Shown here: positions 12,384 through 21,418 of the stretch, in pieces
How the letters are laid out: every line of letters starts with the position of its first letter
Position numbering within the stretch: position 1 is the stretch's first letter
NCBI GenBank assembly: GCA_913041085.1
Contig: CAJWHN010000004.1
Coordinates: forward strand, 1-48,988
From: an uncultured Flavobacteriales bacterium
GTDB lineage: Bacteria > Bacteroidota > Bacteroidia > Flavobacteriales > UBA7312
Direction: 5' to 3'
DNA: 48,988 nt
Made by a program: the position numbers and the translations under genes
The notes under the pieces: generated by a model
Database searches by the model: none
Told to the model about the DNA's origin: nothing
The model's input: the letters and a program-made list of their open reading frames with translations, nothing else

Positions 12384-12431
12384 AAAGTGTCACGAGTTAT
12401 CAACAAAGTGGTAAAAAGTGGTAAAAAGTGG
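12384..12431 (+). promoter_or_regulatory. MraZ-type operator: tandem AAAGTGG boxes upstream of mraZ
   Basis: AAAGTGG occurs at 12405-12411, 12415-12421 and 12425-12431, three identical copies with a three-base spacer (TAA twice), so a strict 10-base period. A further AAAGTGT lies at 12384-12390. Published MraZ sites are repeats on a 10-base period: TGGG-type boxes in E. coli and AAAGTG(T/G)-N3 in Mycoplasma (recalled knowledge). The array sits about 13-60 bases upstream of the -7 element, overlapping the -33 region, where binding would be expected to interfere with RNA polymerase. Confidence 0.8.
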
Positions 12432-12443
12432 AGTAAAATTGCA

Positions 12444-12451
12444 TATATTTA
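12444..12451 (+). promoter_or_regulatory. Candidate -7 element of the dcw operon
   Basis: TATATTTA is one mismatch from TAnnTTTG and lies 20 bases before the mraZ ATG, directly downstream of the AAAGTGG array. It is the only good promoter candidate seen before the 15.6-kb operon. Confidence 0.45.
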
Positions 12452-12470: not shown

Positions 12471-12932
12471 ATGATAAACTTAATTGGGACATATGAATGC
12501 AAGATTGACGCTAAAGGTAGGATTATGCTACCTGCAGTCTTGAAAAAACAGCTGTCTCCTATCATAGGAGAGGGCTTTGTTTTGAAGCGATCTGTGTTTA
12601 GTAGTTGCCTTGAAATACATCCTATGAGCGAATGGAATGTCTTGATGTCTGAGGTAAATAAGTTGAATCGATTTGTAAAGAAAAATAATGACTTCATACG
12701 TCTTTTTACTGCTGGTGTCAAAATGTTAGAAACGGATTCTAATGCTCGACTTCAAATTCCAAAGGATCTAATCAGTTTTGCTAACATTTCAAAAAATGTA
12801 GTCATTTCTTGTTCAGTCAATATGATTGAGGTTTGGGATAAAGATCAATACGAGCAAGTTTTAAAAGATGCTACTTCTGATTTTGCAGATTTAGCAGAGG
12901 AAGTAATGGGCAACATCGAAAAAGAAGACTAA
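12471..12932 (+). CDS. mraZ: Transcriptional regulator MraZ
   Basis: This 153-residue protein contains two SpoVT/AbrB-like domains. The first is INLIGTYECKIDAKGRIMLP and the second is TDSNARLQIPKDL; the repeated DxxxRxxxP pattern is the MraZ hallmark. It forms ring-shaped oligomers that bind repeated boxes upstream of its own gene and control the dcw operon. Start ATG 12471 matches the family N terminus. An upstream in-frame GTG at 12387 would add 28 residues encoded by the operator and promoter. It is first gene of the cluster and its stop overlaps the rsmH ATG. Confidence 0.95.
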   Translation: MINLIGTYECKIDAKGRIMLPAVLKKQLSPIIGEGFVLKRSVFSSCLEIHPMSEWNVLMSEVNKLNRFVKKNNDFIRLFTAGVKMLETDSNARLQIPKDLISFANISKNVVISCSVNMIEVWDKDQYEQVLKDATSDFADLAEEVMGNIEKED

Positions 12933-13828
12933 TGGGATATCACGAGGCAGTTTTATTAGATGAATCAATAGCTGGCCTTTCTATTCAACCTAACGGTATC
13001 TATGTTGATGTCACTTTTGGCGGTGGCGGTCATTCCAAATCTATACTACAAAAACTAGAAAATGGCAAGCTCTTTGCCTTTGACCAAGATAGCGATGCAC
13101 AACAAAATTGTGTTGATGATACTCGCCTAGTTTTAATTGCTCAGAACTTTAGGTTTATCAAAAAGTTTTTGCGTTTGGAAGGTATCCATGAAGTTGATGG
13201 TATTCTTGCGGATTTGGGTGTTTCTTCACATCAATTTGATACTGTAGATCGTGGATTTTCAATTCGAGAAAACGGTGATTTGGATATGCGAATGAATAGA
13301 GAGCAAGAACTGTCTGCCAAAACCGTAGTAAACGACTATGAATATAACGAATTAAGTCGGATTTTTAGAAAGTTTGGTGAACTAAACAATGCTTATGCTT
13401 TAGCAAAATCTATAGTTAATTACAGAGAAGAAAAGGTTATTTCAACGACTGAGGACTTGAAAGACGCTGTAAAAGAGCATGTGCCTCCACACAAGAAAAA
13501 TAAAATATTAGCTCAACTTTTTCAAGCAATTCGTATTGAAGTCAATGATGAAATGAACGCTTTAAAAGATATGCTAAGTCAGTCTGTTGATTTGCTTAAA
13601 AAAGGCGGTAGGTTATCTGTGATATCCTACCATTCTTTAGAAGATAGATTGGTGAAAAACCTCATAAAGTCAGGCAATTTCGAAGGAGAAATAGAAAAGG
13701 ATTTTTATGGTATTCCTAAGCTTGTTCTAAATTCTATTAATAGAAAACCCATCACTGCAACACAAGAAGAATTAGATAGTAATCCACGCTCTAGAAGTGC
13801 AAAATTAAGAGTAGGTCAAAAGGTATGA
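12932..13828 (+). CDS. rsmH: 16S rRNA (cytosine1402-N4)-methyltransferase RsmH
   Basis: This 298-residue SAM-dependent enzyme (formerly MraW) N4-methylates C1402 of 16S rRNA in the P site. It begins YHEAVLLDES, followed by VDVTFGGGGHS (SAM loop, about residues 25-35), ILADLGVSSHQFD, the RGFSIRENGDLDMRM segment, and ISYHSLEDRLVK near the C terminus. The length is typical. It overlaps mraZ by one base and ftsL by four (ATGA), in the standard dcw order. Confidence 0.96.
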   Translation: MGYHEAVLLDESIAGLSIQPNGIYVDVTFGGGGHSKSILQKLENGKLFAFDQDSDAQQNCVDDTRLVLIAQNFRFIKKFLRLEGIHEVDGILADLGVSSHQFDTVDRGFSIRENGDLDMRMNREQELSAKTVVNDYEYNELSRIFRKFGELNNAYALAKSIVNYREEKVISTTEDLKDAVKEHVPPHKKNKILAQLFQAIRIEVNDEMNALKDMLSQSVDLLKKGGRLSVISYHSLEDRLVKNLIKSGNFEGEIEKDFYGIPKLVLNSINRKPITATQEELDSNPRSRSAKLRVGQKV

Positions 13829-18924: not shown

Positions 18925-20249
18925 TGGGGAAAGTTGTTGTGCTTGGTGGTGGAGAAAGTGGCTGTGGGGCGGCACTATTAGCACAACAAAAAGGATTTGA
19001 GGTATTTCTTTCTGATATCGGAAAGATAAAAGAGAAATACAAAAATGTTCTTAAACATAATGCGATTGAATGGGAAGAAGAAAAACACTCTGAAAAGCGT
19101 TTTTTCGAGGCAGATATAATTGTCAAAAGTCCAGGTATCCCTGATACTATTCCTTTAATACAAGATTTGAAAAAAGCTTCAGTGCCTATCATTTCTGAAA
19201 TTGAATTTGCGGCACGATATACCGATGCAAAAATTATTGGCATTACAGGAAGTAACGGCAAAACCACTACTACATTATTAGTAGGCCATTTGCTCAAAAA
19301 AGCGGGTTTAAATTTGGGTATTGCTGGAAATGTAGGTGACAGTTTTGCTTTACAAGTAGCCAATGAATCTCATGACTTTTATGTCTTAGAATTAAGCAGT
19401 TTTCAATTGGACGGCATAGATAATTTTAAGCCTCACATCGCCATTTTGCTCAATATCACACCAGATCATTTGGACAGATATGCCAATAAAATGGAGAACT
19501 ACATTCAATCAAAAATGAGAATTACTATGAATCAGACTTCAGAAGATTTTTTAATCTACTGTTCGGATGATAATAACATAACAATGAATTTAAAAACTCA
19601 GGCTCAATGTTTGCCATTTTCTATTAAAGAAAATCAAGAGCAAGGAGCTTGTTTAAACAATGACGAGATAGAAATAAATATTAACCAAGAATCATTTAAT
19701 ATGAACATTCAACAATTGGCCCTTCAGGGCAAACACAACATCTACAATTCTATGGCTGCAGCTATTTCAGCTAGGATTTTAGATTTAAACAAAGATTTAA
19801 TAAGAGAGAGTCTTATTGACTTCAAAAATGTAGAACACCGACTCGAACGAGTCATTAAAGTACACGGTATCGAGTTCATTAACGACTCTAAGGCTACAAA
19901 TGTCAATTCTACATGGTACGCTTTGGAAAGTATGACTAAAGATACCATTTGGATTGTCGGTGGTGTTGATAAGGGAAACGATTACTCATCACTAATACCT
20001 TTAGTCAATCAGAAAGTAAAAGCGATTGTTTGTCTAGGTGAAAATGTAGACTCTATAAAAGCAGCATTTGAAAATTTAGATGTTGATATGCTATTTGCCT
20101 CATCTATGGAAGAAGCCGTCAATCAATCTTATGAACACGCTACTAAGGGCGATGCTGTTTTGTTATCGCCAGCATGCGCTAGTTTCGATTTATTCGAAAA
20201 TTATGAGCACAGAGGTTATGAATTTAAATTATCAGTAAGAAGTTTATAA
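18924..20249 (+). CDS. murD: UDP-N-acetylmuramoylalanine--D-glutamate ligase MurD
   Basis: This 441-residue cytoplasmic Mur ligase adds D-Glu to UDP-MurNAc-L-Ala. It begins with a Rossmann-type GKVVVLGGGESGCG. The ATP loop GITGSNGKTTTT follows, then LELSSFQLD, LNITPDHLDRY, NDSKATNVNSTWYAL and the C-terminal LLSPACASFDLFENYEHRG typical of MurD. The start is ATG 18924, overlapping the mraY stop; a longer in-frame start within mraY is rejected. ftsW follows after two bases. Confidence 0.96.
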   Translation: MGKVVVLGGGESGCGAALLAQQKGFEVFLSDIGKIKEKYKNVLKHNAIEWEEEKHSEKRFFEADIIVKSPGIPDTIPLIQDLKKASVPIISEIEFAARYTDAKIIGITGSNGKTTTTLLVGHLLKKAGLNLGIAGNVGDSFALQVANESHDFYVLELSSFQLDGIDNFKPHIAILLNITPDHLDRYANKMENYIQSKMRITMNQTSEDFLIYCSDDNNITMNLKTQAQCLPFSIKENQEQGACLNNDEIEININQESFNMNIQQLALQGKHNIYNSMAAAISARILDLNKDLIRESLIDFKNVEHRLERVIKVHGIEFINDSKATNVNSTWYALESMTKDTIWIVGGVDKGNDYSSLIPLVNQKVKAIVCLGENVDSIKAAFENLDVDMLFASSMEEAVNQSYEHATKGDAVLLSPACASFDLFENYEHRGYEFKLSVRSL

Positions 20250-20251
20250 AG

Positions 20252-21418
20252 ATGAGTAAGCTAAAAAAATACATAAACTTAGAAGGCGATACTCGCATTT
20301 GGGGGGTTGTATTTTTTCTATCTATTGTATCTATTGTAGTCGTATATAGTGCAACGGGTGGTTTAGCATATACTTCTTATGGTGGTAACACCTGGCATTT
20401 GTTCTTCAAGCATTTCAAGTTTTTAATTGTTGGACTTGTATTAATGTATTTTGTTCATAAAGTGCCACATAAATATTTCTCTCGTTTAGGGCAGTTAGGG
20501 TTCATTATTGCCATACCTATACTTTTTTATACTGTTGCATTCGGCACATCTATGAACGATGCTAATCGTTGGATTACTATTGCTGATATGCCGATTAACA
20601 CTTTTGAAATTGGAAAAATTGCAATTACTATTTTTCTAGCTCGTCAATTGGTAAGATGTCAAAACGAACTTAGTGATTTAAAAACGGTTTCATGGAAATT
20701 ATTTGCTCCATTAGTATTGATTTGTGCTATTATTTTTCCAGCGAATTTATCAACTTCAGCGATGATATTTTTAGCAGGTCTTATGCTATTGTATCTTGGA
20801 GGTGTGCCATTTAAGTATTTGGCTTTATTGTTTGCGAGTATCCTCACATTAGGAGTCTTGGTTATCAGTTTATCCTTAACAGTCCCTGCCGTGCAAAAAA
20901 CATTCCCTAGAGCACAAACTTGGATCAATAGGATTGTTAATTTCTCTGAAAATAAGACAGTTAAAAGTGATGAAAATTATCAAGTAGCGCATGCCAAGGT
21001 TGCTATTGTAAACGGAGGAATAAAGGGTAGAGGACCAGGGAAAAGCACACAGCGTAATGTTTTGCCCTTACCTAATTCAGATTATGTTTATGCTATTCTA
21101 ATAGAAGAATGGGGTTTCTTAGGAGGTTTTGCAGTCGTCTTTTCCTATGTGGTTTTACTATTGCGGGGTAAACGGATTTTTAATTTAGCTAGTGATCCAT
21201 TAGCAGCCTATCTTGGGGTTGGTCTTAGTTTATCTATGGTTCTTCAAGCTTTTATAAATATGGCTGTTGCGGTTGATTTTTTCCCAGTAACAGGTCAAAC
21301 TTTGCCTTTGATAAGTATGGGTGGTGTATCGGTTATTTTTACTTGTATTTCATTAGGGGTAATTCTTAGTACCAGTCGAAGTGTTAACGTTTCTAAAATA
21401 AGTGCCAATGTCAGTTAG
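20252..21418 (+). CDS. ftsW: SEDS peptidoglycan polymerase FtsW
   Basis: This 388-residue integral membrane protein of the SEDS family is predicted to have about ten helices. It polymerises lipid II at the septum together with FtsI. Features include VVYSATGGLAY near the N terminus, NDANRWI, the large loop with NGGIKGRGPGKSTQRNVLPLPNSDYVYA, and EEWGFLGG with the conserved acidic residues. The segment FFPVTGQTLPLISMGGVS is near the C terminus. It sits between murD and murG in dcw order, overlapping murG by 11 bases. Confidence 0.95.
   Translation: MSKLKKYINLEGDTRIWGVVFFLSIVSIVVVYSATGGLAYTSYGGNTWHLFFKHFKFLIVGLVLMYFVHKVPHKYFSRLGQLGFIIAIPILFYTVAFGTSMNDANRWITIADMPINTFEIGKIAITIFLARQLVRCQNELSDLKTVSWKLFAPLVLICAIIFPANLSTSAMIFLAGLMLLYLGGVPFKYLALLFASILTLGVLVISLSLTVPAVQKTFPRAQTWINRIVNFSENKTVKSDENYQVAHAKVAIVNGGIKGRGPGKSTQRNVLPLPNSDYVYAILIEEWGFLGGFAVVFSYVVLLLRGKRIFNLASDPLAAYLGVGLSLSMVLQAFINMAVAVDFFPVTGQTLPLISMGGVSVIFTCISLGVILSTSRSVNVSKISANVS

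Follow-up and report, generated by a model that had tools for sequence, protein, structure and literature searches.

A predicted MraZ operator joined to a candidate DnaA box at the dcw promoter of Flavobacteriales

How bacteria tie cell division to the start of replication is an old question, addressed mostly in E. coli, Bacillus and Caulobacter, and DnaA is known to control division genes in Bacillus subtilis (the ftsL operon) and in Caulobacter (ftsZ). For the Mollicutes, the MraZ operator is described as a set of AAAGTG[T/G] direct repeats (PMC8475190, citing Fisunov 2016), while in E. coli MraZ is described as binding a site that overlaps the DnaA box of the mioC promoter (PMC4446571, citing Eraso 2014). 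The region upstream of mraZ in E. coli K-12 contains AGTGGGAAATTGTGGGGCAAAGTGGG, that is, three WGTGGG boxes with a 10-bp period. Here we compare these systems with the dcw promoter of an uncultured Flavobacteriales bacterium, located on a stretch of DNA of 48,988 nucleotides that is referred to as the window.

Three identical AAAGTGG boxes are present on the forward strand of the window, at 12405..12411 (box 1), 12415..12421 (box 2) and 12425..12431 (box 3), separated by TAA spacers. A degenerate distal box, AAAGTGT, ending in GTGT, lies at 12384..12390 on the same strand, 21 bp upstream of box 1 and beyond the DnaA-like box described below; the start positions given for all four boxes by the initial annotation (12384, 12405, 12415 and 12425) proved exact. 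Downstream of the array, mraZ (12471..12932, +, with its ATG at 12471; Pfam PF02381, E=8.1e-24) heads the dcw cluster and is adjacent to the next dcw gene, mraW (rsmH; 12932..13828, +; PF01795, E=1.2e-96), and the relatives of the mraZ product with solved structures in the PDB are MraZ proteins, e.g. 9qlr. A lone AAAGTGG is not rare, with 14 occurrences in the window against 8.6 expected. The phased pattern WGTGG-N5-WGTGG-N5-WGTGG has a single occurrence in the 1.46-Mb source genome, at mraZ, and its reversed control has 0; the same triple is found once per genome in 30 of the 60 relatives searched (the source genome and 29 others), in every case immediately ahead of mraZ, and the reversed pattern gave 0 matches across these 60 genomes.

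A search of flavobacterial mraZ upstream regions, which the initial annotation had proposed as a check, recovered GTGG boxes with a 10-bp period in the relatives. A set of 80 flavobacterial mraZ loci was collected and their promoters aligned on the array (counts are given over 81 promoters, and the dereplicated set comprises 49); the 49 dereplicated promoters show hardly any variation in the three GTGG cores. The distance from the array to the start codon varies between 60 and 80 bp, taking 17 different values, so that the conservation of the array is not a mere consequence of sequence relatedness. A fourth box is also visible, as an exact GTGG located at -21 from box 1 in 26 of the 81 promoters, while the other neighbouring offsets hold 0-1 such matches, and GTGG repeats with a 10-bp period extend well beyond the Flavobacteriales. 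The locus therefore carries what a MraZ operator is expected to contain, at least two direct repeats of a GTGG core with a 10-bp period. Its location, period, uniqueness in the genome and order-wide conservation, together with the Pfam assignment of the MraZ gene and the neighbouring mraW, uphold the initial proposal, and the array ahead of the dcw cluster is strongly supported as a genuine, if predicted, MraZ operator.

Two details of that proposal require revision. The boxes had been considered a better fit to the Mycoplasma form than to the E. coli form, which is refuted by E. coli K-12, where the same GTGG core recurs with the same period; the comparison of Mycoplasma and E. coli motif families was dropped because E. 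coli K-12 shows this core. Since all forms share a GTG core and a 10-bp period, common to Mycoplasma, E. coli and the window, the window is, at the level of the motif, not specially Mycoplasma-like. The array had also been described both as lying directly upstream of the mraZ promoter and as covering the expected -33 region; it is plausible that the array extends over the -33 zone, but not that it lies upstream of the promoter, a -7-like sequence, TATATTTA, being present at 12444-12451. This candidate -7 element (12444..12451, +) is identified by column conservation and is of the TAnnTTTG type, the consensus of the Bacteroidota -7 element, and 80 of the 81 mraZ loci have TAnnTTT on the downstream side of the array.

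The same span contains a further element, TTATCAACA (12397..12405, +), which was unremarked in the initial annotation and which we infer to be a DnaA box from the conservation of its offset, its clustering at the candidate oriC and its covariation with the oriC boxes and DnaA. Its last A doubles as the first base of MraZ box 1, a one-base overlap. The pattern TTWTNMACA occupies exactly this offset in 79 of the 81 flavobacterial mraZ promoters (48/49 dereplicated), and none of the aligned mraZ promoters has it at neighbouring offsets. Within the 9-mer, position 3 alternates between A and T and position 5 between C and T (G in one promoter), a degeneracy typical of DnaA boxes, while positions 6-9 read AACA almost without exception. 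Relative to the E. coli consensus TTATNCACA, TTATCAACA is not a letter-for-letter match (C6 is replaced by A), but boxes vary by lineage and an exact match to TTATNCACA is not defining outside E. coli-like DnaA; the exact TTATCCACA form occupies the mraZ site in three genomes (G040, G045 and G334). Across the order, 156 of 394 Flavobacteriales genomes, belonging to 60 of 105 genera, carry the composite TTWTNMACA-WWGTGG-N5-WGTGG, with 1 match for the reversed control, and many of the genomes without it are reduced endosymbionts lacking mraZ (family f16) or carriers of variants. The 9-mer is absent or moved in G037, L091 and G036, and lies further upstream in family f7, while family f6 has a decayed MraZ box 1 but retains TTATYAACA in register with boxes 2 and 3. 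In some genomes from other orders (L318, L328 and L330), DnaA-box-like 9-mers likewise precede the GTGG array, with a different spacing or on the opposite strand. Elsewhere in the window, the dcw cluster holds three TTATNAACA sites in a 500-bp stretch (19964-20460), which may be due to chance.

To relate the 9-mer to replication, the origin was placed in the complete genome G012, the GC skew of G053 and G022 being too noisy. The cumulative GC-skew minimum of G012 lies at ~1.455 Mb. Within the 400 kb read, TTWTNAACA is most densely clustered at this minimum, with 7 sites in 500 bp at 1457368-1457864 between pgk and rpiB, where TTATNAACA is ~40-fold enriched and among the strongest 9-mers. The mraZ element matches this 9-mer, which clusters at the lineage's own candidate origin. 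Clusters of DnaA boxes were looked for around dnaA and none were found there, from which the Flavobacteriales origin, as judged from box distribution, is not next to dnaA; the candidate origin is the pgk-rpiB interval (G012:C1:1457368-1457910, L253; L286 in the source genome). Boxes are present upstream of rpiB in most relatives, the source genome included (L286). Within the 750 bp upstream of rpiB, 28 genomes together hold 76 A6 boxes, where shuffles average 11.3 with a maximum of 21, and 25 C6 boxes, where they average 3.5 with a maximum of 11; the shuffles preserve base composition only, and box density there is ~5x that of the downstream side in the same 28 genomes. The two forms, TTATTAACA (A6) and TTATTCACA (C6), interchange at homologous oriC positions, as seen at -295 and -117 between G038 and G046, and many origins of the A6 lineage contain one TTATCCACA. 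One origin prediction in the related Elizabethkingia was based on TTATCCACA, allowing at most a single mismatch (PMC8994065).

The element also varies together with DnaA itself. Genus g28 (G045 and G334) has TTATCCACA as its mraZ element and exclusively C6 boxes at its origins (6+6 boxes; L334 and L372), and its DnaA proteins (L112 and L382) carry the recognition motif DHSTV, where the other DnaAs of families f3 and f8 carry DHATV; the mraZ box, the oriC boxes and the DnaA motif have therefore changed together, a covariation based on one genus and a single evolutionary event. Because G040 has TTATCCACA at mraZ despite a DHATV DnaA, and family f6 combines a DHSTV DnaA with mixed boxes, the match between motif and box is, on these sequence comparisons, a preference and not a rule. 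The change in g28 from DHATV to DHSTV, along with that of all origin boxes to TTATCCACA, reads as a natural specificity switch. The degeneracy at W3 and N5, the interchange with perfect TTATCCACA or TTATTCACA at homologous positions and the co-change with the DnaA motif are the reasons for which the mraZ 9-mer looks like the DnaA box of this lineage, TTWTNAACA; they equally speak against assigning the 9-mer to a different, unknown Flavobacteriales protein that would control replication and division genes and also have sites at oriC, a reading that the occurrence of the 9-mer as single sites, 20-bp direct pairs and inverted pairs would allow, as this layout leaves the protein unfixed, and that we consider highly improbable. 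Variable box layouts are typical of DnaA.

Beyond mraZ and the candidate origin, the 9-mer recurs, in constant arrangements, at further replication genes. Direct pairs with a 20-bp period lie ~130-145 bp upstream of hup (HU) in many genera (L147-L149, L160, L414-L418 and L421-L425) and ~110 bp upstream of dnaB in many Flavobacteriaceae (L413, L419, L420, L436 and L441-L445), with the gene identities assigned by Pfam; in G334 the dnaB pair is TTATCCACA twice. A direct-pair pattern search aimed at oriC matched the hup promoters instead. An inverted pair, TTATCAACA-N7-TGTTGATAA, separates the divergent clpC and gyrA genes (L211:6984-7008, contig C15 of G000) and is kept throughout the family of the source genome where found, the 7-bp spacer being unconserved in sequence, and a single 9-mer precedes dnaA in the genus of the source genome. 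These sites bear on a simpler explanation, plain MraZ autorepression in which TTATYAACA, as an A/T-rich flank or an additional contact, would simply belong to the MraZ footprint and DnaA would have no role. The 9-mer does abut box 1 and occupy the gap in the 21-bp register that separates box 1 from the distal box, and an extra contact by a ring-shaped MraZ oligomer is conceivable; against this, the motif is a 9-mer without GTGG that occurs in the absence of MraZ boxes at oriC, hup, dnaB and gyrA, changes with DnaA and oriC in g28 and stays when box 1 decays, so that we regard an MraZ-only promoter as very unlikely.

We consider it probable, from the comparative evidence, that the dcw promoter of Flavobacteriales combines MraZ autorepression with a direct DnaA input. 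Occupancy of the sites by MraZ and DnaA is likewise inferred. MraZ would bind the three phased GTGG boxes and the distal fourth box, over the -33 zone, and repress its own operon; boxes 2 and 3 would cover this zone, as judged from the TAnnTTTG-like columns that follow the array, and MraZ spread across boxes 1-3 would block RNA polymerase in a classic autorepression. The DnaA box would be situated ~55-60 bp upstream of the expected transcription start, and DnaA bound at this upstream edge of the array would inform the division operon of the replication cycle. Located outside the core promoter, DnaA would not block the polymerase directly and might activate transcription or hinder MraZ at box 1. 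Given a box positioned ahead of the core promoter, with one base in common with MraZ box 1, the effect of DnaA is most likely positive, by direct upstream activation or by displacement of MraZ, which we hold at somewhat better than an even chance; a role as co-repressor is possible but not likely, and the absence of any transcriptional effect is unlikely. That family f6 keeps the DnaA box despite the decay of box 1 favours a direct role of DnaA over simple competition for box 1.

DnaA boxes are also able to act by titration, and DnaA might bind the mraZ box solely for titration or chromosome timing, leaving dcw transcription unaffected. This is quite unlikely in view of the offset and strand of the box relative to the promoter, which are invariant in >150 genomes, and of the parallel placement in the promoters of hup and dnaB, where the boxes stand ~110-145 bp ahead of the start codon. 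With a regulatory role for the mraZ box, the 9-mer sites would delineate a Flavobacteriales DnaA regulon comprising dcw, hup, dnaB, gyrA and probably dnaA, in which DnaA and MraZ jointly set the expression of the division and wall cluster, a broader proposal that we judge reasonably probable. If true, there would be a direct transcriptional link from replication initiation to cell division in Bacteroidota. The fused box, held across most of a large order, would provide a single promoter for point-mutation tests of this link, while the lineage-specific DnaA box TTWTNAACA and the rpiB-side origin would aid the annotation of Bacteroidota genomes.

Compared with described systems, the MraZ array would represent a known type of operator, and the fused candidate DnaA box an apparently new part. 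No published work on DnaA and mraZ in Bacteroidota was found in the literature searched, which left most subscription journals outside and is weak evidence of novelty, and neither a fused DnaA box nor the small predicted Flavobacteriales DnaA regulon was found within the same limits. The ftsL operon of B. subtilis and ftsZ of Caulobacter resemble the present proposal in that the replication initiator acts as a transcription factor of division genes, but they belong to other phyla and involve promoters other than the flavobacterial dcw promoter; to our knowledge, no fused MraZ operator exists in these DnaA-controlled promoters. The E. coli mraZ operator shares with the window three WGTGG boxes and the 10-bp period, but its boxes are WGTGGG without an adjoining DnaA box, where those of the window are WGTGGT. 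The Mollicutes operator, as described in PMC8475190, likewise has AAAGTGG boxes upstream of mraZ and a motif found once per chromosome, whereas the window adds the candidate DnaA box fused to box 1 and the distal box at -21. The mioC promoter of E. coli, as described in PMC4446571, shares the overlap of a MraZ site with a DnaA site, here predicted, within one promoter; mioC is an oriC-side gene, whereas the predicted flavobacterial overlap belongs to the dcw cluster and shows order-wide conservation.
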